DNA of 64,000 nt from Candidatus Flexifilum affinis (lineage in GTDB: Bacteria > Chloroflexota > Anaerolineae > Aggregatilineales > Phototrophicaceae), in assembly GCA_016713325.1 (NCBI GenBank), contig JADJPJ010000082.1:1-64000 (forward strand). The letters run 5' to 3'. The notes below the pieces were generated by a model, which saw nothing but the letters and a program-made list of their open reading frames with translations, did no database searches and was not told the DNA's origin. Both the position numbers and the translations under genes were made by a program. This document shows, in pieces, positions 11,901 to 58,943 of this stretch (the stretch's first letter is position 1; each line of letters opens with the position of its first letter).

Positions 11901-12506
11901 TCAGTTCGGATTCGTCGTTAAATCAGGGGGTCCCGCAGATTCTTCAAATGTCACGCGGTGGTAGACATCGGCCAGGGCCAGCGTGCAGCCGACCGACTCC
12001 AGCGCCACCGTCGCGTTCAGCCCGACCGCCGCCACGTACAGCCATTTGCCCTCCGACTGGCGGGTGAAGACCTCGACCACCGCCTGCTCCTGGTCGATCA
12101 GCACGTACTCCTGAAGGCTCTCCAGGCGCTGGTAGCGGCGGAACTTCTCGCCACGGTCGAACTTCTCTGTCGCCGGGGAGAGCACCTCGACCAGCAAAGT
12201 CGGGTTCAGCAGGGTGTCGCCGCGCTCGTCGTAGATGGGCTGCCCGCACACGACCGTGAGATCCGGGTAGGCGTAGAGACCGGCGTGTGCGACGGAGACC
12301 CGGAGATCGCTGCCATGCACCTGGCAGTCTCGTGCAGCCAACTGGGTGTGCAGCGATGCCCCAGTATTCATCCCTATGAGACTATGATTGGGCTTCGCGC
12401 CCGCCATCATATAGACCTCGCCATCGAGGTATTCGAATTTGAACTCCGATGCCGCATCAATCCCGAAATATTCTTCCGGCGTGAGCCGCCTGCGTGGCAG
12501 CGCCAT
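11901..12506 (-). CDS. Uma2-family (DUF820) putative restriction-like endonuclease
   Basis: A 201-residue member of the Uma2/DUF820 family, a PD-(D/E)xK fold found in many copies in Cyanobacteria and Chloroflexota. The N-terminus RRLTPEEYFGID, the segment FKFEYLDGEVYMMAG, the core PDLTVV and LLVEVLSPATEKFDRGEKF follow the family pattern. The acidic residues of PDLTVV and LVEVLSP would bind metal. AGGAGGGG precedes the ATG at a good distance. Function is unsettled: members are suspected to be mobile or DNA-associated nucleases, but none is characterised well enough to assign a role. Confidence 0.88.
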   Translation of the reverse strand: MALPRRRLTPEEYFGIDAASEFKFEYLDGEVYMMAGAKPNHSLIGMNTGASLHTQLAARDCQVHGSDLRVSVAHAGLYAYPDLTVVCGQPIYDERGDTLLNPTLLVEVLSPATEKFDRGEKFRRYQRLESLQEYVLIDQEQAVVEVFTRQSEGKWLYVAAVGLNATVALESVGCTLALADVYHRVTFEESAGPPDLTTNPN

Positions 12507-12696
12507 CTCACCCCTCCTGATCCACCTTCCGTCGAAAGTTCGCGATTGCGTGCGCAGATCGCCATAAACGTTGCCGATGATCTGATTGTAGCGCGTTGGC
12601 GGAATGCTGTCAGACAGTTCGACGGCGCGCTGGACGGCGGCGCAGCGCTGCCAGGCTTCTCCCTGCCGGTGCGTGAGGTGTTCCCCCCGAGGAAAG

Positions 12697-43797: not shown

Positions 43798-44814
43798 ATG
43801 CTCAGTCAGATCTTCAACGCCGTCATACGCGGCGGTGGCCGGGAACAGTCCGCACCCTCACTCGATAAGCTGCTGGAGGGAATGGACCAGCACCTGGAAA
43901 ACTTCGAGTCGCTGATCCAACCGGCCCCCACGTCCAAGCCGCGCACCCCGTTCGATGCCCATCTGCCGAAAGAACAGATGACCCTCGCCAACCTCACTCC
44001 GCGCCAGAAGCTGCGGGTGGTGCCGAAAATGGTGCCGCTGGTGCTCAACATGCAGCGCGCCGCCCGCCTGTATGACGGCAAGTATCGTCCCCGTGCCAGC
44101 AAGGCCTCGCCGGAATTTATCGCCGATCTGGAAGCGCTGGCCAAAGCCGCCGGCGCCAGGGACATCCGCTACGTCAAAGTGCCGCCCAACGCCATCTTCA
44201 AGGGCAAGGGTATCCCGGAGCCCTACGCCATTGTCTACACCGTGGAGATGGACAAAGCCCCGATCGACACTTCGCCGAGCTTCGAGTCGCAGCTCGAAGT
44301 CATGCGCGGCTACAAGAACATGTCGGTGATCGGCATGAAGCTGGCCGGCACTCTGCGCCGCCATGGTTTCGCCGCCTACCCCGGCACCGCGCTCGGCGGC
44401 CTGACCGACTACGTGCATCTGGGCGAGCTGGCCGGCCTGGGCGCAGTCGGCTACCACGGACTGCTGATCACGCCGGGCGAGGGGGCGCGACTGCGCATCA
44501 ACACCCTGTACACCAACATCACCAACCTGCCGCTGGCGACGGAAAAAGAACACCTCTGGGTGCGCGACTTCTGCGCCATGTGCCACAGGTGCGTGCGCAA
44601 GTGCCCGGTCAATGCCATCTACGATCGGCCTGCCCCGCGCGGCGACGGCGGGATGCAGTGCATCGATCATGCGAGCTGCCGCGAGTACTTCACGCGCAAC
44701 TATGGCTGCGCAGTCTGTCTGGCGGTATGCCCCTTCAGCCAGGTGGGCTACGAGAAGGTCAGGGAGCGCTTCAAGGGCAACCCCGCCGCGCCGCAGTTCC
44801 GCATCCCGGTCTAG
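43798..44814 (+). CDS. Fe-S protein related to reductive dehalogenase/QueG
   Basis: A 338-residue protein with two C-terminal [4Fe-4S] sites: CAMCHRCVRKCPVNAIY and, after CREYFTRNYG, CAVCLAVCPFSQVGYE. The preceding domain contains AYPGTALGGLTDYVHLGELA and GLGAVGYHGLLITPGEGARL, the cobamide-binding pattern shared by QueG and reductive dehalogenases. There is no twin-arginine signal and no RdhB anchor gene nearby, and QueG's full architecture is not matched. It is thus a cytoplasmic QueG/RdhA-like paralogue; some relatives are annotated as such without known substrates. Start ATG 43798. Confidence 0.85.
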   Translation: MLSQIFNAVIRGGGREQSAPSLDKLLEGMDQHLENFESLIQPAPTSKPRTPFDAHLPKEQMTLANLTPRQKLRVVPKMVPLVLNMQRAARLYDGKYRPRASKASPEFIADLEALAKAAGARDIRYVKVPPNAIFKGKGIPEPYAIVYTVEMDKAPIDTSPSFESQLEVMRGYKNMSVIGMKLAGTLRRHGFAAYPGTALGGLTDYVHLGELAGLGAVGYHGLLITPGEGARLRINTLYTNITNLPLATEKEHLWVRDFCAMCHRCVRKCPVNAIYDRPAPRGDGGMQCIDHASCREYFTRNYGCAVCLAVCPFSQVGYEKVRERFKGNPAAPQFRIPV

Positions 44815-45062: not shown

Positions 45063-46985
45063 ATGGTGCCCAGCGAATTCACAGACACGGTCAGGTCGGC
45101 CAAGGGGCACGAAAGTGCGCACGGCACCCAGCCGACCAGAGCCGCGAACTTCCTCGAAAGCAATGCATGGGTGCTGAGGCAGATTGTCGAAACCAGCCCG
45201 CTAGCCATCATGATCGTCGATGCCCAGGTCTCGGATAAGCCGATCGTTTACGTCAACGCCGCTTTTGAGCAGTTGACCGGCTACACGGGCGAAGAGACGC
45301 TCGGCCGGAATGCCCGCTTTCTGCAAGGGGAAGATCGCGATCAGGAAGGAGGCCTGATCCTTCACGAGGCCGCTCAAAACCAGGTGTCGTGCACGGCTAT
45401 CCTGCGCAACTATCGCAAGGATGGCCGCATGTTCTGGAACGAAGTTCACCTGGCCCCGATCCGCGACGCAGACGGAACCGTCACCCACTTTGTGGGCCGG
45501 CAGCAGGATGTTACGGCGCGCCACGACGCGGAGCAGGCTCTGGCGCGCAGCGAGGCACGCTACCACCAGATCTTTGACAGCAACAGCGCCGTCAAGCTGG
45601 TCGTCGACCCGCGGACCGGTCGCATCGCGGATGCCAACGCGGCCGCCTCCGACTTTTACGGTTATTCGCGCGAGCAGCTCAAGACGATGCGTATCCAGGA
45701 TATCAACACGATGACGGATTCCCAGATCCGGCAGGCGATGCTCCAGGTGCAGTCTCATGGGCGCAAGCATTTCGAATTTCAGCACCGGCTCGCTTCCGGC
45801 GAAATTCGCGATGTCGACGTCTATTCCAGCCCCGTCGACACGCCAGAGGGACAGATGCTTCATTCGATTCTGATTGATGTCACCGCCAAGCGTCAGGCGG
45901 AACGACGTTATCGCTCCCTGTTCGAGCAGTCCAACGACGCGGTGTTCATCATCGGATTGGATGGCCGCTATCTCCAGGTCAACCAGCGTGCCGCCCAGAT
46001 GCTCGGCTATTCGGTCGAGGAGCTGACTGCGCTGGGCTATCAGGAGACGGTCGATGCGCGTATGCACGCCGACGTCGAGCGCGTCGTTGCCCGCTTGCTG
46101 GCGGGGGAGCACGAGCCGCCGCATGAGCGCATTGTCCTGCGTAAGGATGGCAGTGCGCTCTCCGTAGAGATTAACACTGAAGTGGTGCGCGATGCCGACG
46201 GAGCTCCGCTGCACTTTCAGGCCGTCGTCCGCGACATCACCGCTCGCAAGCAGGCGCAGAAGCGCGCCTTCGAGCTGGCTCTCGAAAAAGAGCGCATCGA
46301 ACTCCTGACCCGGTTTATCCAGAATGCCGCTCATGAGTTTCGTACGCCGCTGTCGACCATCTGCTCCGGCGCTTACCTCATGACGCGCATCGACGATCCC
46401 GAACGCCGCCGGGACAAGGCCCGACAGATCGAGACGCAGGTCTCACGGATCACCAAGCTGATTGAGATGCTGCTGACCCTCATCCGTCTGGAGACGCTCG
46501 AGACGCTGCCGACCCATTCCGTGAACCTGTCCACTCTCCTGGAGTCCGTGAGCCATCGCTGCCTCACAACCTACGGCGATCGGCCGGAGTTGCGCATCAA
46601 TCTGCACCAACCCCTGCCGTCGATTGACGGCGACGCGGGGTATCTTTCGCAGGCGCTGGAACAACTGCTCGACAACGCCTATCGCTACACGCCGCCGGAC
46701 GCGGTCATCACGCTGGAAGCCGGGATGCGCGACAGCGAGGTGTGGGTAGAGGTTCGTGACACAGGACCCGGTATCCTGGCGCAGGACCTGATCCATATCT
46801 TTGAGACGTTCTGGCGGCATGACCAGGCGCATACGACCGAAGGCTTCGGGCTGGGCCTGTCGATCGTCAGGCGCATCGTCCAGCACCACGGCGGCACGAT
46901 TGACGTCGAAAGTCAGGTCGGCCAGGGGACAACCTTCCGCATCACCCTGCCGATAGCCGTAACAGATGTGAGCCAGAGCGGATAG
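45063..46985 (+). CDS. LOV-PAS-PAS histidine kinase A (Cys to Ala in LOV)
   Basis: A 640-residue soluble sensor kinase. Residues about 35-155 are a LOV-type PAS: the signature reads GRNARFLQ with Ala84 where photoreactive LOVs have Cys. The flavin contacts N116 and N126 (NYRKDGRMFWNE) and Q147 (FVGRQQDVT) are kept. Two PAS domains follow (about 160-280 and 285-400). HisKA has the phospho-acceptor H424 in AAHEFRTPLS. The ATPase has LLDNAYRYTP (N box), DTGPGI (G1) and GFGLGLSIV (G2). It is the first and most divergent of four tandem paralogues. No response regulator is nearby. Confidence 0.93.
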   Translation: MVPSEFTDTVRSAKGHESAHGTQPTRAANFLESNAWVLRQIVETSPLAIMIVDAQVSDKPIVYVNAAFEQLTGYTGEETLGRNARFLQGEDRDQEGGLILHEAAQNQVSCTAILRNYRKDGRMFWNEVHLAPIRDADGTVTHFVGRQQDVTARHDAEQALARSEARYHQIFDSNSAVKLVVDPRTGRIADANAAASDFYGYSREQLKTMRIQDINTMTDSQIRQAMLQVQSHGRKHFEFQHRLASGEIRDVDVYSSPVDTPEGQMLHSILIDVTAKRQAERRYRSLFEQSNDAVFIIGLDGRYLQVNQRAAQMLGYSVEELTALGYQETVDARMHADVERVVARLLAGEHEPPHERIVLRKDGSALSVEINTEVVRDADGAPLHFQAVVRDITARKQAQKRAFELALEKERIELLTRFIQNAAHEFRTPLSTICSGAYLMTRIDDPERRRDKARQIETQVSRITKLIEMLLTLIRLETLETLPTHSVNLSTLLESVSHRCLTTYGDRPELRINLHQPLPSIDGDAGYLSQALEQLLDNAYRYTPPDAVITLEAGMRDSEVWVEVRDTGPGILAQDLIHIFETFWRHDQAHTTEGFGLGLSIVRRIVQHHGGTIDVESQVGQGTTFRITLPIAVTDVSQSG

Positions 46986-47074
46986 AGGATCAGGATAAGG
47001 CCTGGTGGAACTCGTCACGCCGCCGCAACAGATCATCAACTCTTTGCGAACACTCAGGGTGTAGAATGTAAGAG

Positions 47075-47095
47075 CGCTCATAACCCCTATGAGCG
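47075..47095. promoter_or_regulatory. Inverted repeat upstream of kinase B
   Basis: CGCTCATA-ACCCC-TATGAGCG: 8-bp perfect arms, 5-nt centre, 71 bp before the kinase B start. TAGAAT at 47062-47067 could be a -10 box just upstream. Confidence 0.35.
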
Positions 47096-47165
47096 GCGAA
47101 CCCACCGCGCACTCTGGTCAGTGTGGGTGTTCGTAGCTGTTCGTAAATGAAGCGACGCCGAAGCG

Positions 47166-50100
47166 ATGATGCGCAACCCCATCCGAAAGTTTTTCAACGA
47201 GATCTTCCCCGGCATCGAAACGACAGTGACGCCGGCAGTACCTCCCGCCGACCTCGAAGCGCAACCGATCAGCCCCTGGATCCTTCAGCAGCTCGTCAAG
47301 AGCAGCCCGTTTGGCATGATGCTGGTCGATGTCCGTCAGCCGGACATGCCCATAACCTACGTGAACGCGGCCTATGAGCGGCTGACGGGCTACTCGGCCA
47401 CGGAGGCCATCGGCCGCCACCCGCACTTTCTGCAAGGGGAATATGGGGACGAGGAGAGCGGGCTGGCCATGCGTCAGGCTCTTGAAAATGGCGAATCCTG
47501 CACAGTCGTGATGCGCAACTATCGCAAAGATGGCGCGATGTTCTGGAACGAGGCGCATTTCGCACCGATTCGCGACGAACAGGGGCAAGTTACGCACTAC
47601 GTCGGCAAACTGCTCGACATCACCGCGCGCAAAGAAGCGGAGCTGGCGGTGGCCCGAAGCGAGGCTCGCTATCACCAGATGTTCGACAGCCACAGCGCCG
47701 TCAAGCTGGTCGTCGATCCAAACACCGGCCGCATCGCCGATGCCAATGCCGCGGCGGCCGACTTCTACGGCTATTCGCGTGAGCAGCTCCGGGCTATGCG
47801 CCTTCAGGATATTCATACGCTGCCCGAGCCAGAACTCTTCGATCATCTCCAAACGGCGGCAGCCCAAGAGCAGACCCATTACGAGGTTCAGCACCGGCTC
47901 GCTTCCGGCGAAATCCGCGACGTCGACGTCTACATCAGTCCGGTCGACACGCCGGAAGGGTGCTTCAACTACGCCATCGTCGTCGACGTCACGGCCAAAC
48001 GCCAGGCGGAGCGGTGCTACCGCTCGCTGTTCGAGCAATCCAACGATGCGGTCTTCATCCTGGATCTCGACGGCAGTCACGTCCAGGCCAATGCGCGCGC
48101 TGCGGAGATGCTCGGATATTCCCTGGAGGAAATGACGTCTCTGGGGTATCGCGACACCGTCGAGCCGTTGCAGCAGCCGGACAGTGCGGGTGTTTTTAAG
48201 CGTCTGCTTGCCGGGGAGCGCATCTCGCCCTACCAGCGCGTGTTCCGCTGCAAGGATGGCAGCCAGCTTCATGGCGAGATCAACATCGAGGTCATACGCG
48301 ACGCGGACGAAAAACCGCTCCACTTTCAGAGCATCGTGCGCGACATCACCCGGCGCAAGCGCATGGAAGAGGCTTTACGCCTGAGCGAAGAGCGCTACCG
48401 AGCAGCCATCGAGGCCAGTATGGATGCTTACTACCTGCTGGAGAGCGTGCGTTCTGCTGAAGGGGAGATCGTCGACTTCTGTATCGTTCAGGTGAATAGA
48501 AAAGCGGTTGTCCAAATGGGGCTGCCCCGCGAAACGCTGATCGGCGGTCTGATCTGCGAACTTTTCCCGATCAACCGCACCGGTGGCTTTTTTGAGCGAT
48601 TCAAGAAGGTGGCCGAAACCGGTGCACCGCTGGAGGCGGAGTACTCTATACCACCGGACCAGCCGGCCCCGGGCTGGTATCGTCACCAGGTCGTCCGCGT
48701 AGGCGATGGCGTGGCGATCATGAATCACGACATCACCGCACGCAAGCAGGCCGAAGAGGCCCTGCACCGCAGCGAAGAGCGCTTGCGGGTGATCATCGAG
48801 AATATCCCGATCATGATCGGTGTTTTTGGCAAGACCGGACGTTTTGAGTACGTCAATCCCGCCTGGATCGACCGACTGGGCTGGACGGTGGGAGAACTGG
48901 CTGCCTTTGAGGATCCACTGTCGGTGTTCTATTCTGATCCAGCTGTTCGCCGGCAGGGGCTGGACTTCATGTTGTCGGGCAAGATCGGCTGGCGTGACTT
49001 TGAAACGCAAACCAAATCCGGAATAGTGATCAATAGTCTCTGGGCCAATGTTCACCTGTCGTAGGGCAGAACGATTGGCTTTGGTCAGGACATTACCGAG
49101 CGCAAACGGATGGAAGAGGCGCTGCGTCAGAGCGAAGAGAAGTACCGGCTGATTGCCGAGAATACGTCCGATGGCATCGTGGTTTGGGACATACAGAAAG
49201 AAGCAATTACCTTCGCGTCGCCCAGTTACGAAGCGATGATGGGGCGCACCTTCGGCGACCTCGATAGGTCAGCCCTGGGAAGAACTTACGGCATTTATTC
49301 ATCCCGAAGACCGCCAAAAGGTTAATTCTTGCGTGGACGAAGCAATCCATTGTCACGACGACACCATAACCCTTCACTACAGAATCCAACATAGTGACGG
49401 TCGTTATTTTTGGCGGGAAGACCACACCAGGTTCCACTATGCGCTGGGTGGCGCCTGTATCACCGCTTATGTCATCGCCCGCGATATCACCGAACGCAGA
49501 CTGGCCGAAGCCCGAGACTTCGAACTGGCGCTGGAGAAGGAGCGCATCCACCTGCTCATGCGTTTCGCCGAGGTGGCCGCCCACGAGTTTCGCACCCCGC
49601 TGACCATCATCGGCACTGCCGCCTATATGCTGACCCGCCTGGACGATGCTGAGGCCCGGCAGCGCAAAGGGGAGGTCATCGACGGCCAGCTCAAGCGCAT
49701 CACCACCCTGGTCGACATGATGCTGACGCTCGTCAGGCTGGAAACGAGCGATCCGGCGACGCTCCGTTCGGTCAAACTCAACGAACTGCTGGCGCAGCAG
49801 CAGCGGCGCTGCATCGCCCAATATGGCGACCGGCCGGTTCTGCGCGTCGAAGCGCCGACCGATCTCCCGTCGGTCCTGGGCAATGACGCCTTCCTGGGCC
49901 AGGCGTTGAGAGAGCTGCTGGATAATGCCTATCGCTTCACACCTGCCGAGGGTCAGATCGCGCTGATGGCCGGCACACTGAACGACCAGGTGTGGGTGGA
50001 AGTCGCCGATACGGGGATGGGCATCACAGCGGACGAATTGCCGCACATCTTCGAGACCTTCTGGCGGCGAGACCAGACTCATACCACGGCCGGCTTCGGT

Positions 50101-50223
50101 CTCGGTCTGTCGATCGTCCAGCGTGTTGTCCAGCTTCACGGCGGCACGATCGCCGTTGAAAGCCAGCCTGGCCAGGGGGCCCGCTTCCGCATCACGCTGC
50201 CTCTGATAATTAGAATGGAGTAA
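47166..50223 (+). pseudogene. LOV-multi-PAS histidine kinase B, broken by stop and frameshift
   Basis: Restored, this would be about 1018 residues: LOV (about 35-155), five or six PAS domains, HisKA and ATPase. The LOV signature reads GRHPHFLQ with Pro86 at the Cys position, and the signalling glutamine is Leu149 (YVGKLLDIT). A TAG at 49062-49064 interrupts HLS-GRTIGFGQDITE, where the paralogue has LSDGRTIGFGQDIT. A further lesion is an extra base near 49263: dropping it gives DLIGQPWEELTAFIHPEDRQ in frame with the kinase half (from about 49270). The kinase half itself is intact, with AAHEFRTPLT, ELLDNAYRFTP and GFGLGLSIV. As it stands, no full kinase can be made. Confidence 0.85.
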
Positions 50224-50478
50224 TTTAGATAATATCTGGCCCTGCCAGTCCATGCAGTGCGCCAGAACCGATTCTTCTGGTTGACGGCAAAATCGCTGTT
50301 CGCTTTCCATCGTCACGGCCACATTCTTAAGTTGTTCACATATACCGTTCAGGAATACAATGAAGGCATGCGTCAAAATCGCGCCCTGGGCGTCGCGGTT
50401 GCTGGCCACTGCTGCCGCGCGCTGCTGGTCGGTTCTGCCGCTCATGTGGTTCATAGGAGATATCGCCCAGAGTCGACG

Positions 50479-52071
50479 ATGCACACCTTCATCCAGCGGA
50501 TTCTTGGAAAGCTGATTCCGCGTACTGCAAAGACGCCAACGATGCTGCCCGTTCCTTCTGTGGGTTCCCCGTTTCAGTCCAGACCCTGGATCCTGGAGCA
50601 GATTTTCGAGAGCAGCCCGCTGGGCATGATGCTGGTCGATGTTCACCAGCCGGACATGCCGATCGCCTACGTCAACGCCGCTTTCGAACGCCTCACCGGT
50701 TATACGTTCGCGGAAGTCGTGGGCCGCAATCCACGCTTCCTGCAAGGGGAGGATCGCGATCAGGACGGTGTACAGGTGATCCGCCAGGCCCTGGAGAAAG
50801 CCGAACCCTGCACGGTTGTACTGCGCAATTATCGCAAAGATGGCAGCCTGTTCTGGAACGAGGCGCATCTCGCCCCGATTCGTGACCCACAGGGCCAGGT
50901 CAGCCATTATGTCGGCAAGCTGGTGGACATCACGGAGCGCAGGCGCATGGAAGAAGCGCTGCGTGAAAGCGAAGAGAAATACCGCCTCATCGCCGAAAAT
51001 ACGTTCGACGGCCTGGTGGTCTGGGATGCCGTGAAGCGAACGATCGTTTACGCTTCTCCCAGCTACGATCGCATGATGGGGCGTGCCGTCGGCGCTTCGT
51101 TGGGCAAAAATCTGGACGATATTGTCGCGATGGTGCATCCCGACGACCGCCGGGGCGTCCGGGATCGACTGGACCAGGCCATGCGCGAGCGGGAGGAAGT
51201 GGTCAACTACACCTACCGTGCCAAACGCGAGGACGGCCACTTTGTCTGGCGCGAAAACCATGCCCGATTCCTCCATGCGGCGGATGGCAGCGCGGCCTAC
51301 GCCTACGTGGCGGTCCGCGACATCACGGAACGTAAACAGGCCGAGGCGCGCGAGTTCGAGCTGGCGCTGGAAAAAGAACGCATCCAACTGCTCACGCGGT
51401 TCATCCAGCATGCCGCCCATGAATTTCGCACCCCGCTGGCCATCATCGGCACCACGACGTACCTGCTGAACAGGCTGGACAATGCCGAGGAGCGGCGGCG
51501 CAAAAGCGCGGAGATCGATCGTCAGCTCATGCGGGTCAGCCGGCTGATCGACATGATGACGCTGCTCATCCGGCTGGAAACGAGCGATGCGTCGACCCTG
51601 CAGACGGTCAGGGTGAATGACCTGTTGACTCATCAGCATCGGCGCAGTGTCACGATGTATGGGGACCAACCGAGACTGCGCGTCGAGGCGCCAGCCGATC
51701 TGCCGGCTATTTTCGGGAAAACCGACGATTTGCTTGTGGCGCTGGAACATCTGCTGGACAACGCCTATCGCTTCACGCCGCTGGATGGAACCATTACGCT
51801 GGCCGCCGGAACTAAGAACGAGAGTCATGTCTGGGTCGAAGTTCGCGACAGCGGATCAGGCATCGCCCCGGACGAACTGCCGCATATCTTCGAGACCTTC
51901 TGGCGGCGCGATCAGGCCCACACCACGGCCGGCTTCGGGCTTGGTCTGTCGATTGTCCAGCGTATCGTCGAGCATCATAGCGGCGCGATCGAAGTCGAAA
52001 GCCAGCCCAGCCAGGGGACGCGCTTTCGCATCACCCTGCCTGTCGCTTCAGCGGGTTTCGGCCGAAGCTAA
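50479..52071 (+). CDS. LOV-PAS histidine kinase C (Cys to Pro in LOV)
   Basis: A 530-residue kinase, the shortest of the four. ATG 50479 (MHTFIQRILGKLI) fits the paralogues' N-termini; upstream in-frame codons do not. The LOV signature is GRNPRFLQ with Pro85 replacing Cys, and the glutamine is Leu148 (YVGKLVDIT), while NYRKDGSLFWNE stays. One PAS domain follows, starting EEKYRLIAENTFDGLVVWD. Then come HisKA (AAHEFRTPLAIIGTTTYLL) and the ATPase (LLDNAYRFTP, DSGSGI, GFGLGLSIV). The last PAS and the kinase core closely match the corresponding parts of B and D, which suggests duplication with domain loss or gain. Confidence 0.93.
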   Translation: MHTFIQRILGKLIPRTAKTPTMLPVPSVGSPFQSRPWILEQIFESSPLGMMLVDVHQPDMPIAYVNAAFERLTGYTFAEVVGRNPRFLQGEDRDQDGVQVIRQALEKAEPCTVVLRNYRKDGSLFWNEAHLAPIRDPQGQVSHYVGKLVDITERRRMEEALRESEEKYRLIAENTFDGLVVWDAVKRTIVYASPSYDRMMGRAVGASLGKNLDDIVAMVHPDDRRGVRDRLDQAMREREEVVNYTYRAKREDGHFVWRENHARFLHAADGSAAYAYVAVRDITERKQAEAREFELALEKERIQLLTRFIQHAAHEFRTPLAIIGTTTYLLNRLDNAEERRRKSAEIDRQLMRVSRLIDMMTLLIRLETSDASTLQTVRVNDLLTHQHRRSVTMYGDQPRLRVEAPADLPAIFGKTDDLLVALEHLLDNAYRFTPLDGTITLAAGTKNESHVWVEVRDSGSGIAPDELPHIFETFWRRDQAHTTAGFGLGLSIVQRIVEHHSGAIEVESQPSQGTRFRITLPVASAGFGRS

Positions 52072-52357
52072 TCTCAGGGCATCTGCTGTGGCATGGGCAC
52101 GACAGGTTTCCGCGTGGGCGAGGACGGGAGCGTGTTTGCAGCCGTCACCAGCGTGCGTGAACAGGCGTGATTGTAAGAACGCACCTGTGTGCGCTCACGA
52201 AAAAACGCCAAAGCTCGACTTTACAAACGGGTTCAATTACTAATCCGGGCGATCGCGGTAGAATTCCCTTAGGTTCGATTGCCCATGGGAGTTGTGGCCC
52301 AGGCGGGTATGCGCGTACACGCGGCCTCAGTTCACGCAGTCGCCGGAAGCATCGCAG

Positions 52358-55300
52358 ATGATCAACGCAGTCACCCGGTTCTTCAGCAGGTTGACCCGTA
52401 CCTGGAGTGCTGTGTACAACAGTCCGCTCTCTGTCGGCGCACACCCTTTTCGCAGCAGCCCCTGGATTCTGGAACAGATTGTCGAAAGCAGCCCGTTTGG
52501 GATGATGGTGGTCGATGCCTTGCAGCCCGACTGGCCGATCGTCTACGTCAACCGGGCCTTCGAAGACCTCACCGGCTTTACCGCGGCGGAGGCGATCGGT
52601 CGGAACGCGCGCTTCCTGCAAGAGGACGATCGCGATCAGGCGGGCCGGCAGGCCATGCGACAGGCGCTGGAGAAGCAGCAGTCCTGTACCGTCGTACTGC
52701 GCAACTACCGCAAAGATGGCAGCATGTTCTGGAACGAGGTGCACCTCGCCCCGATCCGCGATCCCCAGGGACGGGTCACGCACTACGTCGGCAAGCAGCA
52801 TGACATCACAGCGCGACGCGAGGCCGAACTGGCCCTGGAGCGCAGCGAAGTGCGCTATCGTCAGATGTTCGACAGCAACACCGCCATCAAGCTGGTGATC
52901 GATCCGAAGACCGGCCGCATCCTGGAGGCCAATATCGCCGCTGTGGCCTTTTACGGGTATACGCCCGAGCAGTTCAAGACCATGCGCATCCAGGAGATCA
53001 ACACGCTGACGGACGCGCAGATCGCCGAGGCCATGCGCCGGGCCGCGGCGGAGGAACGCACCTTCTTCGAGTTCCGGCACCGGCTGGCCAATGGCGAACT
53101 TCGCGATGTCGACGTGTTTTCCAGCCCGGTCGATACGCCGGATGGGCGTGTGCTCTACTCGATCATCATGGATATCACTGGCAAGCGCCGCGCGGAACGA
53201 CGCTACCGCTCGTTGTTCGAGCAGTCCAATGACGCCGTCTTTATTCTCGATCTGAACGGCAACCACGTGCAGGCCAATGCCCGCGCCGCGGACATGCTCG
53301 GCTATTCCCTGGAGGAAATGACCGGTCTAGGCTATCGCGACACGGTTGAACCGGTGCAGCAGCCGGAAAGCTCGCGCGTTTTTGAGCGCCTGCTCGCCGG
53401 GGAGCGCATCCCGCCCTATCTGCGCGTCTTCCGTCGCAAGGATGGCGGTATGCTTTATGGCGAGATCAATATCGAAGTCGTCCGCGACCTCGATGGAACT
53501 CCGCTCCATTTTCAGAGCATCGTCCGCGATGTGACCCGGCGCAAGCAGACCGAGGATGCGCTCCGGCAGAGCGAGGGGCGGCTGCGCTCCCTCATCCAGT
53601 CGCAGACGGCCTTCGTCATCCGCACCGACATGGAAGGGCGCTACAGCTACGTGAATCCGGCCTTTGCCAACTGGCTGGGCATAGAACCGGAGAAAGTCTT
53701 CAATACATCCGTCCTCGACTCGATCGCTCTTATCGATCACGCCAAAACCCTGGAGACGGTCAGCGCGTGTCTGTCGCGCCCGGGCTACCCGATTCAGGTG
53801 ACGCTGACGAAAGTTCGCCTGGACCGCAGCATCCGCCACACCTTGTGGGAATTTATCGCACTGCAGGATGAGACGCAGGCCTTGACCGAAATTCAGTGCG
53901 TCGGCTTCGACATCACCCGGCAGTGGGAGCTGGAAGCGGAGCTGCAGCAGAGCGAACAGCGCTACCGTGCGTCTATCGAAGCCAGCATGGATGCCTACTA
54001 CCTGCTGGAGAGCGTGCGCTCTGCGGATGGTCAGATCTGCGATTTTCGCATCGTGCAGGTCAATCAGAAAGCAGTGCTGGAAATGGGCCTGCCGCGCGAG
54101 AAGCTGATCGGCAGCCTGATCTGCGAGCAGTTTCCCATCAACGTGGTCGGCGGCTTTTTCGAGCGTTATAGGCAGGTGGTCGAAACCGGTGGGGCGCTGG
54201 ACGAAGAATACTACATCCCGCCGGATCAGCCCGGACCGGGTTGGTATCAGCATCAGGTCGTCAAAGTCGGAGATGGCGTGGCCATTGTGAACCACGATAT
54301 CACCGAACGTAAGTATGCTGAACAGGCTCTGCGCCGCAGCGAGGAACGTCTGCGCATTATCGTCAGCACGATCCCGGTCATGATCGTCACTTTCGACCAG
54401 CAGGGGCACTTTGAATATGTGAATCCTTATTGGGTCGAACGCCTGGGATGGAGGTTGGAAGAACTGGCAACGGTGGAAGATCCACTTGCGCTTTACTACC
54501 CGGACACGGTTGCTCGGCGGGAAGCGCTGGAGTTCATGCTCTCTGGGGAGCCGGGTTGGCGTGACTTCGAAACCCACACCAAATCCAGCGGAGTGATCAT
54601 GACCTCCTGGGCCAATGTCCGCCTGTCAGACGGGCGCACGATCGGTTTTGGTCAGGACATTACCCGGCGCAAGCAGATGGAGGAAGCGCTGCGGGAAAGC
54701 GAGGCGAAATACCGCCTCATCGCCGAGAACACCTCCGATGGCATTGTCGTCTGGGACAACAGGACGCTTCAGGTCACGTATGCCTCTCCAAGTCACGAGC
54801 GGATCATGGGGCGCGCCAACGGAGAGTCTGTCGGGATGGACTGGGAGAGTCTTTCGGCCCAGATTCATCCCGACGATCGCGTGGCACTGCGGGCACGCTA
54901 TCGCGAGGCGGTTCAGCGCAGACAGGAAACGGTGAACTATACCTACCGAATCAGACACCGGGATGGTCACTACCTGTGGCGGGAAGATCATGCCCGACTC
55001 AATTATGGTCCGGATGGCGAGTACTTGAATGCCTATATTGTCGTTCGCGACATCACCGAACGAAAGCAGGCACATGCGCGCGAATTTGAACTGGCCCTCG
55101 AAAAAGAGCGCATCGATTTGCTCTCCCGCTTCATCCACAGCGCGGCCCATGAGTTTCGCACACCGCTGTCGATCATCGGCACCACCGCCTACCTGCTCAT
55201 CCGTATGGATGATCCTGAGCGCCGCCGGCTCAAGAAAGAGCAGATCGACACTCAGGTCAAGCGAATCAGCAAATTGCTTGAGATGGTGCTGCTCCTGATC

Positions 55301-55792
55301 AAGCTTCAGACGATCGAGACCGTGACGTGGCTGCCCATTGCCGTTGATATCCTGCTGGAAAACCGGCGTCGGCACTACGGCGGGCTGTATGGCGATCGCC
55401 CAGCGTTGCGTGTCGAAACGCCGGACGATCTGCCCGTGATCCAGGGGGATGCCGGGTATCTTTCGCAGGCGCTGGACCAACTGCTCGACAATGCTTATCG
55501 CTTTACCCCTGAAGAGGGAACGATTGCGATCGTGGCAGGGGCATCGGAAGATACCCTCTGGGTAGAGGTTCGCGATACCGGTTCGGGCATCGCGCCTGAG
55601 GAACTGCCGCACATCTTCCAGACCTTCTGGCGGCATGATGAGGCACACACGACGGCCGGTTTCGGGCTGGGATTGTCGATTGTCCAGCGCGTCATCCAAC
55701 TTCACGGCGGTACGATCAGTGTCTCCAGTACGCTGGGGCAGGGAACCTCCTTCCGCATTACGCTGCCGATCGCGCCCCAGAGCCTGAGTTAA
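52358..55792 (+). CDS. LOV-hexa-PAS histidine kinase D (Cys to Ala in LOV)
   Basis: A 1144-residue kinase from ATG 52358 (MINAVTRFFSRL), the longest of the array. The LOV domain has GRNARFLQ (Ala84 for Cys), NYRKDGSMFWNE and the glutamine Q147 kept (YVGKQHDIT). Six more PAS units follow, including one absent from A-C (GRLRSLIQSQTAFVIRTDME) and one with ASMDAYYLLESVRSADGQIC that B also has. The kinase core has AAHEFRTPLS, QLLDNAYRFTP, DTGSGI and GFGLGLSIV. All signalling residues of HisKA/HATPase are present. It shares its order of domains with B plus one insertion. Confidence 0.93.
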   Translation: MINAVTRFFSRLTRTWSAVYNSPLSVGAHPFRSSPWILEQIVESSPFGMMVVDALQPDWPIVYVNRAFEDLTGFTAAEAIGRNARFLQEDDRDQAGRQAMRQALEKQQSCTVVLRNYRKDGSMFWNEVHLAPIRDPQGRVTHYVGKQHDITARREAELALERSEVRYRQMFDSNTAIKLVIDPKTGRILEANIAAVAFYGYTPEQFKTMRIQEINTLTDAQIAEAMRRAAAEERTFFEFRHRLANGELRDVDVFSSPVDTPDGRVLYSIIMDITGKRRAERRYRSLFEQSNDAVFILDLNGNHVQANARAADMLGYSLEEMTGLGYRDTVEPVQQPESSRVFERLLAGERIPPYLRVFRRKDGGMLYGEINIEVVRDLDGTPLHFQSIVRDVTRRKQTEDALRQSEGRLRSLIQSQTAFVIRTDMEGRYSYVNPAFANWLGIEPEKVFNTSVLDSIALIDHAKTLETVSACLSRPGYPIQVTLTKVRLDRSIRHTLWEFIALQDETQALTEIQCVGFDITRQWELEAELQQSEQRYRASIEASMDAYYLLESVRSADGQICDFRIVQVNQKAVLEMGLPREKLIGSLICEQFPINVVGGFFERYRQVVETGGALDEEYYIPPDQPGPGWYQHQVVKVGDGVAIVNHDITERKYAEQALRRSEERLRIIVSTIPVMIVTFDQQGHFEYVNPYWVERLGWRLEELATVEDPLALYYPDTVARREALEFMLSGEPGWRDFETHTKSSGVIMTSWANVRLSDGRTIGFGQDITRRKQMEEALRESEAKYRLIAENTSDGIVVWDNRTLQVTYASPSHERIMGRANGESVGMDWESLSAQIHPDDRVALRARYREAVQRRQETVNYTYRIRHRDGHYLWREDHARLNYGPDGEYLNAYIVVRDITERKQAHAREFELALEKERIDLLSRFIHSAAHEFRTPLSIIGTTAYLLIRMDDPERRRLKKEQIDTQVKRISKLLEMVLLLIKLQTIETVTWLPIAVDILLENRRRHYGGLYGDRPALRVETPDDLPVIQGDAGYLSQALDQLLDNAYRFTPEEGTIAIVAGASEDTLWVEVRDTGSGIAPEELPHIFQTFWRHDEAHTTAGFGLGLSIVQRVIQLHGGTISVSSTLGQGTSFRITLPIAPQSLS

Positions 55793-55886
55793 GGACTATA
55801 TTGCAGGTGACATTGTTCATGCGGCGCTGCCCGGGGGCGCGGGTAGAATCCGCGTGTTTGTATGGTTCTGGAAAGCCGCTTGCTTC

Positions 55887-56726
55887 ATGACCGATACCCT
55901 CCCTCGCATTGATGCGCTCCCCCCGCCGGAGATCGCCGCCCGAGCCGCCGAACTGGGCGTGCGCAAAGCCAACATGACCCTCATCACCACCCTGGTTCAG
56001 GCAATCATGGCGGGCGGCTTCGTCTCGCTCGGCGCGCTGTTTGCCACCGTCGCGGTCGCCGGCACGGCCGGTGTTGTACCGTACGGATTGGTGCGCGTGA
56101 TGTTTGGGCTGGTTTTCTGCCTGGGCCTGGTTCTGATTGTGCTGGCCGGCGCGGAACTCTTCACCGGCAACAACCTGATCGCCATGGCCTGGGCCAGTCG
56201 CAAGGTGACGACCCGGTCGCTCTTGCGCAACTGGGCGCTGGTCTACACCGGCAATTTCATCGGATCGCTGATCACGGCGATCCTGGTCTACGCCGGCCGG
56301 GAGTACAGCTTCGGCGGCGGCGCCATCGGGCAGAGCGCGCTGAGCATCGCCAATATGAAGGTGCAGTTCGAGTTCGGGCAGTCGATCGCGCTGGGCATCC
56401 TGTGCAACGCGCTGGTGTGCATGGCCATCTGGCTGACGCTCGGCGGACGCACCACCACCGATAAAATCCTCGCGATCATTTTCCCCATCACCGCGTTTGT
56501 CGCCGCCGGCTTCGAGCACAGCATCGCCAACATGTATTTCATCCCGATTGCCCTGCTGATCAAGACCTTCGACCCCGCCTTCGCCGCCAGTACCGGCATG
56601 AACCTGGATGCGCTGACCCTGTCCGGCTTTTTCGGCAACCTGATCCCGGTGACGATCGGCAACATCATCGGCGGGGTGATCATGGTCGGGGCGATGTACT
56701 GGTTCCTCTACCTGCGCGAACGCTAA
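55887..56726 (+). CDS. Formate/nitrite transporter (FocA/NirC family)
   Basis: A 279-residue six-helix channel from ATG 55887. The family motif near the pore reads LAGAELFTGNNLIAMAWAS, and FEHSIANMYFIPIALL contains the histidine that protonates the anion in FocA. The C-terminal FFGNLIPVTIGNIIGGVIMV is the second FNT signature. Such pentameric channels pass formate, nitrite or hydrosulfide. No pyruvate formate-lyase or nitrite reductase gene is adjacent, so the anion cannot be named. It follows the kinase array by 94 bp and is convergent with the PhnB-like gene. Confidence 0.93.
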   Translation: MTDTLPRIDALPPPEIAARAAELGVRKANMTLITTLVQAIMAGGFVSLGALFATVAVAGTAGVVPYGLVRVMFGLVFCLGLVLIVLAGAELFTGNNLIAMAWASRKVTTRSLLRNWALVYTGNFIGSLITAILVYAGREYSFGGGAIGQSALSIANMKVQFEFGQSIALGILCNALVCMAIWLTLGGRTTTDKILAIIFPITAFVAAGFEHSIANMYFIPIALLIKTFDPAFAASTGMNLDALTLSGFFGNLIPVTIGNIIGGVIMVGAMYWFLYLRER

Positions 56727-57632: not shown

Positions 57633-58943
57633 TCACTTCACATACACCCGGCAGCTCCACGGCGGCAGATCGAGCGTGGTCGGGTGGTGGAAGGTCTCGA
57701 CCTTCTCGCTGAAGAAGTCGGTGTACGTGCCCTCGTACAGCCGTTCGTGGAAGGTGACGCTCTGAGTCTGCGCCGAGAGGTTGAAGATGGCAAACACCTT
57801 GTCACGGTCGTTCTGGCGCACAAAGCTCAGCACCTGGCCCGGCGCGCTGTTCGGCACGCGGATCATGCGCGCGCCCCAGGGGGCATTCCACAGCGCGGTG
57901 TTGACCTTCTTCAGCGCGAACAGTTGGGCGTACAGGTCGCCGAGCGTGTGCGCCTGCCAGGCGATCGGGTCCTTCTCGAAGAATTCCAGGCGCTTGGCGT
58001 GCCCGGCTTCATCGCCGTTGTAGATCAGCGGCATGCCTTCGCCCACTACCGATAGCACGATCGCCGCTTCCAGGCCGTCGCCGAACAGCTCGAACTGCGT
58101 GCCATCCCAGGCGTTCTTGTCGTGGTTGCTCACGAACATCATGCGCATGGCTTCCGGCGGGTAGGCCTTCTCGTTCCACGAGTAGTAGACGTACAGGCTG
58201 TTGACGTCGGCTTTGCCCTGCGCGATGGCGTGCATGGAATCGTGCCAGCTCCAGCCATAGGTCATGTCGAAGGCCTCGGCGTGCAGATCGGTGGACTCCC
58301 ACTCGGCCAGCATGAACACCGGCTTGATGGCGTCCAGCTCCTTGCGGGCGTTGTTCCAGAAGTCGAGCGGCACGAAGCCGGCGACATCGCACCGGTAGCC
58401 GTCGACGTCGACCTCGCGCACCCAGTACTTGAGCGCCTCGGTCATGTAGGCGCGTACCTCTGGCTTGCTGTAGTCCAGGTCGATGATGTCCTGCCAGTCC
58501 CACCAGGGGGTGGGGCGGAAGTCACCCTTCCAGTCGCGGACGTACCAGTCCGGGTGATCGCGCACGAGCCGGTTGTCCCAGGCGGTGTGGTTCGCCACCC
58601 AGTCGAGGATGACGTACAGTCCCAGCGCATGCGCCGCCTTGACGAATTCCTTCAGGTCGTCCAGGGTGCCAAATTCCGCGTTGACGCTGTAGTAGTCTTT
58701 CACCGAATACGGACTGCCCAGCGTCCCTTTGCGGTTCTTCGCGCCGATCTCGTGGACGGGCATCAGCCAGACGATGGTCACGCCCAGCGCCTGCAAACGC
58801 GGCAGCTGCTCCATGGCCGCGCGGAAGGTCCCCTCTGGTGTGAACTGCCGGGTGTTGATCTGATAGATGCTGGCGTTCCGGGTCCATTCCGGATGCTTGA
58901 TCTTGACGTAGGGTACCGGTTGGTAGCGGCTTAGATTAGGCAT
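57633..58943 (-). CDS. Alpha-amylase family (GH13) glycosidase
   Basis: A 436-residue cytoplasmic GH13 enzyme (no signal peptide). The four conserved regions are visible: DWVANHT (I), GYRCDVAGF with nucleophile D186 (II), MLAEWES with acid/base E214 (III) and FVSNHDKN with D275 (IV). The N-terminus WTRNASIYQINTRQFTPEGT and the C-terminal all-beta domain (FVRQNDRDKVFAIFNLSAQT) complete the fold. Lack of extra domains suggests cleavage of malto-oligosaccharides taken up by the cell; the sugar importer at 3.6-8 kb might supply them, though distance makes that guess weak. Confidence 0.93.
   Translation of the reverse strand: MPNLSRYQPVPYVKIKHPEWTRNASIYQINTRQFTPEGTFRAAMEQLPRLQALGVTIVWLMPVHEIGAKNRKGTLGSPYSVKDYYSVNAEFGTLDDLKEFVKAAHALGLYVILDWVANHTAWDNRLVRDHPDWYVRDWKGDFRPTPWWDWQDIIDLDYSKPEVRAYMTEALKYWVREVDVDGYRCDVAGFVPLDFWNNARKELDAIKPVFMLAEWESTDLHAEAFDMTYGWSWHDSMHAIAQGKADVNSLYVYYSWNEKAYPPEAMRMMFVSNHDKNAWDGTQFELFGDGLEAAIVLSVVGEGMPLIYNGDEAGHAKRLEFFEKDPIAWQAHTLGDLYAQLFALKKVNTALWNAPWGARMIRVPNSAPGQVLSFVRQNDRDKVFAIFNLSAQTQSVTFHERLYEGTYTDFFSEKVETFHHPTTLDLPPWSCRVYVK

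Follow-up and report, generated by a model that had tools for sequence, protein, structure and literature searches.

A tandem array of LOV-type histidine kinase genes lacking the adduct cysteine in Candidatus Flexifilum affinis

What does a light-oxygen-voltage (LOV) domain do for a histidine kinase once the cysteine that forms its photo-adduct is gone, and how did four genes for such kinases come to lie side by side? The question is raised by a contig of Candidatus Flexifilum affinis (Chloroflexota; GenBank assembly GCA_016713325.1, contig JADJPJ010000082.1), of which positions 1 to 64,000 were analysed and are here called the window. Four genes, A to D, run head to tail on the + strand at 45063–55792. 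An earlier note had described them as four tandem LOV-type histidine kinases without the adduct Cys, each with the flavin contacts of a LOV domain, and had proposed a redox- or light-sensing array with graded inputs. The array, the N-terminal LOV domains and the kinase cores stand, but B is interrupted, so that three intact kinases remain. The array is an unusual arrangement of known parts, Cys-less LOV histidine kinases, and not a new kind of system. The reading that we favor, tentatively, is that A–D are orphan, soluble multi-PAS kinases in which the LOV pocket has moved from photochemistry to non-covalent flavin or redox sensing in D and C, and has eroded in A and B.

Each gene opens with an N-terminal LOV-type PAS domain and closes, in reading order, with a HisKA/HATPase_c core. 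Gene A (45063–46985, +) is an open frame of 640 aa with the order LOV(Ala,Gln)-P2-P3-HisKA-HATPase_c; its LOV-type domain with linker lies at 45162–45548 (residues 34–162), with the Ala84 codon at 45312–45314 and His at the position of AsLOV2 R467. Gene C (50479–52071, +), 530 aa counted from the ATG at 50479, is the shortest in design, LOV(Pro,Leu)-P7-HisKA-HATPase_c, its LOV-type domain occupying 50581–50967 (residues 35–163) with the Pro85 codon at 50731–50733 and Leu at the position of the active-site Gln. Gene D (52358–55792, +) encodes 1144 aa from the ATG at 52358, a TTG upstream at 52292 being also in frame, and reads LOV(Ala,Gln)-P2-P3-P4-P5-P6-P7-HisKA-HATPase_c. The LOV-type domain of D (52457–52843, residues 34–162; Ala84 codon 52607–52609) keeps the Gln and is one of those modelled and matched by fold below. 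These three genes are intact, with open frames of 530–1144 codons. Provided that the ATGs at 45063, 47166, 50479 and 52358 are the starts, the numbering in the earlier note (Ala84 in A and D, Pro86 in B, Pro85 in C) is correct. HisKA and HATPase_c were detected in the three intact genes and in the detached tail of B. All four cores carry the histidine kinase motifs H, N, G1, F and G2, B as a whole being interrupted. No segment of A–D resembles a membrane helix, the highest 19-residue Kyte–Doolittle mean being 1.44, and the kinases are therefore probably cytosolic.

The first part of gene B (47166–49064, +; LOV(Pro,Leu)-P2-P3-P5-P6, 632 aa) ends at an in-frame TAG, 49062–49064, close to where P6, its fifth module, ends. 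Its LOV-type domain (47271–47657, +; residues 36–164) has the Pro86 codon at 47421–47423, Leu in place of the Gln and His where AsLOV2 has R451. In the interrupted stretch that follows (49065–49332, +) P7 starts in the original frame, which then shifts near 49260–49280. The detached tail (49333–50223, +) holds the end of P7 and the HisKA/HATPase_c core with all its motifs (core about 49519–50220), open only in this second frame. Because an in-frame stop is followed by a change of frame before the kinase core, B is broken, unless the record carries errors there. The lesions span about 220 bases (49062–49280) between flanks that are well conserved on both sides, and a pseudogene and a sequencing error are both possible from one record.

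That the N-terminal domains are LOV domains is clear by sequence for all four and by fold for D and B. The motif at the adduct site is GRNARFLQ in A and D, GRHPHFLQ in B and GRNPRFLQ in C, and NYRKDG and FWN are found in all. A profile of the four domains matched 165 distinct PDB sequences at E <= 1e-3, the best 60 at E values of 1e-39 to 7.5e-28; those that we recognised among the 60 listed are LOV proteins or LOV constructs. The NCBIfam YtvA-family profile scored 128–161 bits and BluLightHisKinLov 118–143 bits, each along one stretch at the LOV end and each below its cut-off (250 bits for the whole protein and 450 bits, respectively). The two domains modelled with AlphaFold, those of D and B, have a mean predicted local distance difference test score of 93.7 and 92.9, respectively. 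For each model 50 PDB matches were listed, all of them LOV structures or constructs to judge by their titles or by how we read these; the best match listed for both is an RNA-binding LOV receptor (43–45% identity). A chance or misread motif is ruled out by the PDB profile, NCBIfam and fold matches, and an origin from general or haem PAS domains finds no support, sequence and fold being closest to LOV. The LOV affinity claimed in the earlier note is borne out, by sequence in all four and by predicted fold in D and B.

In the alignment the adduct Cys, the defining residue of a LOV photoreceptor, is replaced by Ala in A and D and by Pro in B and C, as had been claimed. Because the Cys is missing there can be no thioadduct, and a covalent photo-adduct at the usual place is ruled out in all four. 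The active-site Gln is kept in A and D (GRQQDVT, GKQHDIT) and is Leu in B and C (GKLLDIT, GKLVDIT). The domains share one further Cys, six columns ahead of the N in NYRKDG, which was considered as a compensatory residue. It is no obvious substitute, because a 55-row alignment with the adduct Cys in its majority motif also has a majority of Cys at that column.

The pocket was compared at 23 positions near the flavin, in AsLOV2 numbering, with 183 non-redundant LOV domains that have the Cys (Cys-LOVs). Twelve of these positions are named in PMC11151830 (papers are cited here by PubMed Central number); the others draw largely on general background, and the N414 column is an extrapolation by one position. 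The contact score is a log-frequency, excludes positions 450 and 513, and penalises changes at well conserved positions more than others. Equivalents of N482, N492, L453 and Q454 are retained in A–D, that of R451 in A, C and D, and that of R467 in B, C and D. A presumed arginine of the flavin mononucleotide (FMN) phosphate site is thus lost in A, with His for R467, and another in B, with His for R451, so a full set of flavin contacts in all four, as in the earlier note, is not supported. Besides the Cys site, residues found in <5% of Cys-LOVs are Met 416, Trp 425 and Arg 463 in D; Met 416, Ala 494 and Leu at Gln513 in C; Ala 414, Met 416, Lys 425, Gly 463, His 467 and Ala 470 in A; and Met 416, Tyr 434, His 451, Gly 463, Met 480, Ala 494, Phe 496 and Leu 513 in B.

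The contact scores are -1.74 for A, -2.15 for B, -1.06 for C and -1.14 for D, and the share of the 183 Cys-LOVs that score lower is 1%, 0%, 15% and 10%, respectively. The drift from a canonical LOV pocket is therefore stepped, mild in D and C and strong in A and B. Averaged over the four window domains the score is -1.52 vs -0.87 for the Cys-LOVs, and at non-contact positions -1.27 vs -1.22; the 67 other Cys-less rows gave -1.27 at the contacts and -1.41 at the remaining positions. With a score that penalises conserved positions more, the change falls on the pocket and the scaffold is kept.

Two published residue filters were applied to the domains. The LOV* filter of PMC4682037 selects domains without the Cys that keep at least nine other conserved residues (‘10’ is stated and nine are listed: G59, N61, R63, F64, L65, Q66, N94, N104 and Q123 of YtvA). 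A and D have 9/9 of those listed and pass, C has 8/9 and misses the Gln, and B, with 6/9, does not pass. The LOV-deltaQ filter of PMC9098866 selects domains without the Gln that have at least eight of nine named residues, the Cys being one of the nine. C passes with 8/9, the missing one being the Cys, and B fails with 6/9 (the N61, C62 and R63 positions differ).

Natural LOV* proteins such as the halobacterial BAT-LOV (PMC4682037) resemble A–D in having Ala or Pro for the adduct Cys within multidomain regulators. They differ in that A–D are tandem histidine kinases from one duplication series, known from sequence, and that C and B also lack the Gln. B and C, with Leu at the position of the active-site Gln, resemble LOV-deltaQ receptors, but the photoreceptors discussed and tested in PMC9098866 work via the Cys and B and C have neither residue. 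Proteins of the YtvA/YF1 type and bacterial LOV histidine kinases share with A–D an N-terminal LOV domain coupled to HisKA/HATPase_c, whereas A–D have no Cys, carry one to six extra PAS modules between LOV domain and kinase, and stay below the NCBIfam cut-offs. At the position of AsLOV2 R467, which we ourselves equate with that of the Fα Trp of PMC10468136, A has His and B, C and D have Arg. This Trp is the determinant of flavin adenine dinucleotide (FAD) binding in the NifL, Aer and MmoS clusters of FAD-PAS domains (PMC10468136). With redox sensors of the NifL/Aer type A–D share only the proposed mode, a PAS domain reading the redox state of a flavin; they lack a Trp at the presumed Fα position and are nearest to LOV in sequence and fold. 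A literature search, which covered titles, the starts of abstracts and few subscription papers, brought up no account of Cys-less LOV kinases in a tandem array.

The four genes are related to each other more closely than to anything else compared. In a tree of 70 kinase cores (those in the loci fetched by then, 11 later matches from the genome G001 described below, such as C369 and C76, being left out) A–D form one clade, with bootstrap and Shimodaira–Hasegawa-like approximate likelihood ratio test (SH-aLRT) support of 99/94. Within it B and C pair (100/96) and D joins them (96/80). The LOV tree agrees on the four-member clade with modest support (SH-aLRT 82). On these trees the genes are copies of one ancestor that appear to have arisen by local duplication, and four independent losses of the Cys are rejected, since A–D form one clade in both.

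Cutting the proteins at their linkers yields a nested series of modules. D is LOV-P2-P3-P4-P5-P6-P7-HK, where HK is the histidine kinase core; B is D minus P4; A is LOV-P2-P3-HK; and C is LOV-P7-HK. The PAS modules, the LOV domain included, thus number seven in D, six in B, three in A and two in C. Between copies, modules in the same position are 56–81% identical; those in different positions do not exceed 31.5% where the alignment covers 100 residues or more, and local matches that are shorter reach up to 60% over 25 residues. Judged by these identities, it is whole PAS modules that the copies have gained or lost. Pairwise identity is 56–74% for the LOV domains and 58–67% for the kinase cores, which puts the LOV domain under about the same constraint as the catalytic part. 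A LOV fold that is kept, in a domain conserved like the kinase core, makes the N-terminal domain probably still a sensor or a dimer switch.

Loss of the Cys, taken singly, is common. A LOV-type filter of our own devising passed 379 of 530 aligned rows, from which 12 refetched loci and three proteins of the window itself had been excluded, the four window domains entering once each. Near-duplicates were kept, at least one place occurring twice (L007 and L152). The Cys is missing from 98 of the 379, the window's four included, and from 71 of 254 after clustering at 80%; a published PAS survey gives 57% of its LOV cluster with Cys. The best LOV tree, many forks of which are unresolved, requires at least 38 changes at this site. 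Cys and Gln are both missing in 32/379 rows, and the pair Pro and Leu is found in three (B, C and L032). The Gln is missing in 32/98 Cys-less rows vs 38/281 rows with the Cys (Fisher p 0.0024 on the 254-row set). A general link between the two losses was considered, and independent pairs on the tree gave it no support; as the association is unsupported once kinship is considered, it is not claimed. Elsewhere in the set, the LOV-type domains L139 and L141 (from G406 and G418) carry Trp in place of the adduct Cys and His in place of the Gln (GQNWRFLH ... FVALHIDV), and the similar L140 has Cys at the adduct position (GQNCRLLH).

Arrays are a different matter, and the rarity that the earlier note suspected is supported among the loci at hand. 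Two LOV genes occur in 2 of the 70 loci that bear a LOV gene and span at least 9 kb (one place enters the count twice), and none has more. The two are L009, where both domains have the Cys, and L062 of Halorientalis, with one Cys and one Pro. The latter, from Halorientalis salina, is a natural pair of a Cys-LOV and a Pro-LOV in neighboring open reading frames (ORFs) on one strand (L062:10010–10354 and 12327–12680).

The nearest parallel to the array is found in G001, the genome behind locus L001, an uncultured Chloroflexi bacterium. Seven matches at E <= 1e-15 comprise five LOV-type domains and two other PAS domains, and none of the five LOV-type domains has the Cys (Ala, Ile, Ala, Phe and Leu). 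In other genomes of the same family group with fetched loci, 22/28 LOV-type domains have it, a tally that excludes L145, G001 and second PAS domains. The five G001 domains lie on separate contigs of 3.2–23 kb, and on two of these (L147 and L148) the LOV kinase comes directly after another kinase of its family, in the same orientation, so that an array split by assembly is likely. Five kinase cores of the family from G001 form a clade of their own (99/95); two of them are from the kinases upstream of L147 and L148, the N-termini of which are out of view or without a LOV domain. Both clades lie within a clade of 19 rows (99/96), whose ten other members include seven with the Cys (L007, L086, P0077, P0080, P0088, P0220 and P0243) and three without (P0016, P0190 and P0211). 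As the clades are separate, the window and G001 sets expanded separately from related kinases. The G001 pockets range from L147, with a contact score above that of 43% of Cys-LOVs and 9/9 LOV* residues, to L150 and L151, which have Ser at the N482 position and score below all 183. In L150 (G001:C25, 356–5477) the LOV-type kinase is strongly eroded; after it come an ORF with a start that looks receiver-like by eye and then another histidine kinase. This ORF is a possible candidate for a response-regulator partner of the family.

What, then, might the domains sense? Redox sensing by D and C is ranked first, although we hold it with some reserve; a PAS domain that is empty or binds another ligand comes second, and light third. 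Cys-less LOV proteins, engineered and natural, bind flavin, which can be photoreduced to the neutral semiquinone or reduced chemically, and the natural, Cys-less BAT-LOV binds flavin and changes shape on its reduction (both PMC4682037). LOV midpoint potentials of about -240 to -280 mV are near cytosolic values (PMC11151830), and Gln-less LOV domains with the Cys still signal (PMC9098866). Signaling of light through flavin photoreduction to the neutral semiquinone, as in the engineered Cys-less VVD and YF1 (PMC4682037), would suit A and D, with Ala, Gln and 9/9 LOV* residues, but is unlikely for the array. BAT-LOV photoreduces poorly and is readily reduced chemically (PMC4682037), a Met near the flavin lowered photoactivation of Cys-bearing AsLOV2 (PMC11151830), and the Gln is missing in B and C. 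Asp at the Gln position enabled efficient photoreduction of Cys-less iLOV (PMC5645311), which by analogy points to proton supply as limiting. It is from the preference of BAT-LOV for chemical reduction, the missing Gln in C and B and this apparent limit on protons that redox is placed above light.

Several facts weigh against a redox sensor. The Gln, as just said, is missing in B and C, our list of flavin contacts draws partly on general background, and A has lost the R467 equivalent, which we take to be the FMN-binding arginine of PMC10468136. All four domains have Met at the position of AsLOV2 V416, as do 3% of the 183 Cys-LOVs and 19% of the 67 other Cys-less rows, and V416M AsLOV2 was not obtainable as a soluble holoprotein (PMC11151830). 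The iLOV result counts here too, and the scan of window genes with NCBIfam or Pfam, which covered part of the window's ORFs, turned up no response regulator. In a rival reading the domains would no longer bind flavin and would serve for PAS dimerisation or bind another small ligand, the real inputs being the downstream PAS modules. That is a doubtful reading but a serious one: contact scores are lowered with other positions near normal, presumed phosphate-site arginines are lost in A and B, L150 and L151 of G001 have lost the N482 Asn and score below every Cys-LOV, and W619_1, a LOV protein with the usual residues, was purified only ~10% loaded and reached ~50% with excess FMN (PMC5314338). 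On the other side D and C retain the two Asn and the two Arg together with the equivalents of L453 and Q454, L147 scores above 43% of Cys-LOVs with all nine LOV* residues, and conservation of the LOV domain matches that of the kinase core. That the whole array is decaying, with B a pseudogene and the others on the same path, is improbable. B has the stop, the frameshift and the strongest pocket erosion, but A, C and D are open throughout with all kinase motifs, a parallel set is kept in G001, and the closely spaced lesions of B might be sequencing errors.

In the reading that we favor, the history of the array would begin with one LOV-PASn-HK ancestor, already without the adduct Cys, that was duplicated in tandem, Ala being kept in A and D. 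The simplest path would be a single change of Cys to Ala, followed by single changes of Ala to Pro and Gln to Leu in an ancestor of B and C; the copies would then have diverged by gain and loss of whole PAS modules. D and C would hold a putative flavin non-covalently and pass its oxidation or protonation state to the kinase. In D the retained Gln could relay N5 protonation, and in C, with Pro and Leu, a hydrophobic active site may act as a sensor of redox state or occupancy. A is doubtful as a flavin sensor and B is broken; A, if it binds flavin, and D could use photo- or chemical reduction. Phosphate would pass to response regulators encoded elsewhere.

The ‘graded’ inputs of the earlier note have some basis, in the stepped departure of the pockets and in a PAS number that runs from 2 to 7, the flavin or redox input itself being our inference. 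A bolder version, which we think slightly less likely still than a light receptor, is that in one lineage a covalent blue-light receptor became a ladder of flavin redox sensors: the Cys was lost once and the kinase then multiplied in tandem into copies with stepped midpoints and different proton relays that are read together, with G001 as a parallel. The variables would be Gln or Leu, Ala or Pro at the Cys site, the phosphate arginines, the Met close to the ring and how many PAS modules follow. Paralogues with Ala and Gln or with Pro and Leu, and with stepwise loss of contacts, form together with Cys-bearing relatives in the same clade a series that could show which residues separate light from redox switching, and whether flavin stays once the Cys is gone. 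Flavin binding with a stepped redox response, if true, could make the array important; if the domains are empty, it would present a photosensor decaying into a structural PAS module.

A search for promoters and terminators gave one and eight sites, no more than in shuffled sequence (3.6 and 8.8). Directly upstream, the protein at 43798–44814 has weak similarity to reductive dehalogenase (79.8 bits, cut-off 160.35) and to epoxyqueuosine reductase (43.8 bits, cut-off 200), below the cut-off in both cases. Directly downstream of D, 55854–56726 encodes a FocA-like formate/nitrite transporter (228.9 bits with a cut-off of 232.3 and 254.6 with one of 290.1), a neighbor that would fit a redox input and proves nothing. 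From a further neighbor, the protein at 57633–58943, which we take from reading its sequence to be amylase-like, the host would be placed among Anaerolineae-like Chloroflexota: the protein is 75–76% identical to copies in G428, G431, G001 and G457, and the family group of these four includes genomes that bear the label Anaerolinea or Anaerolineae.

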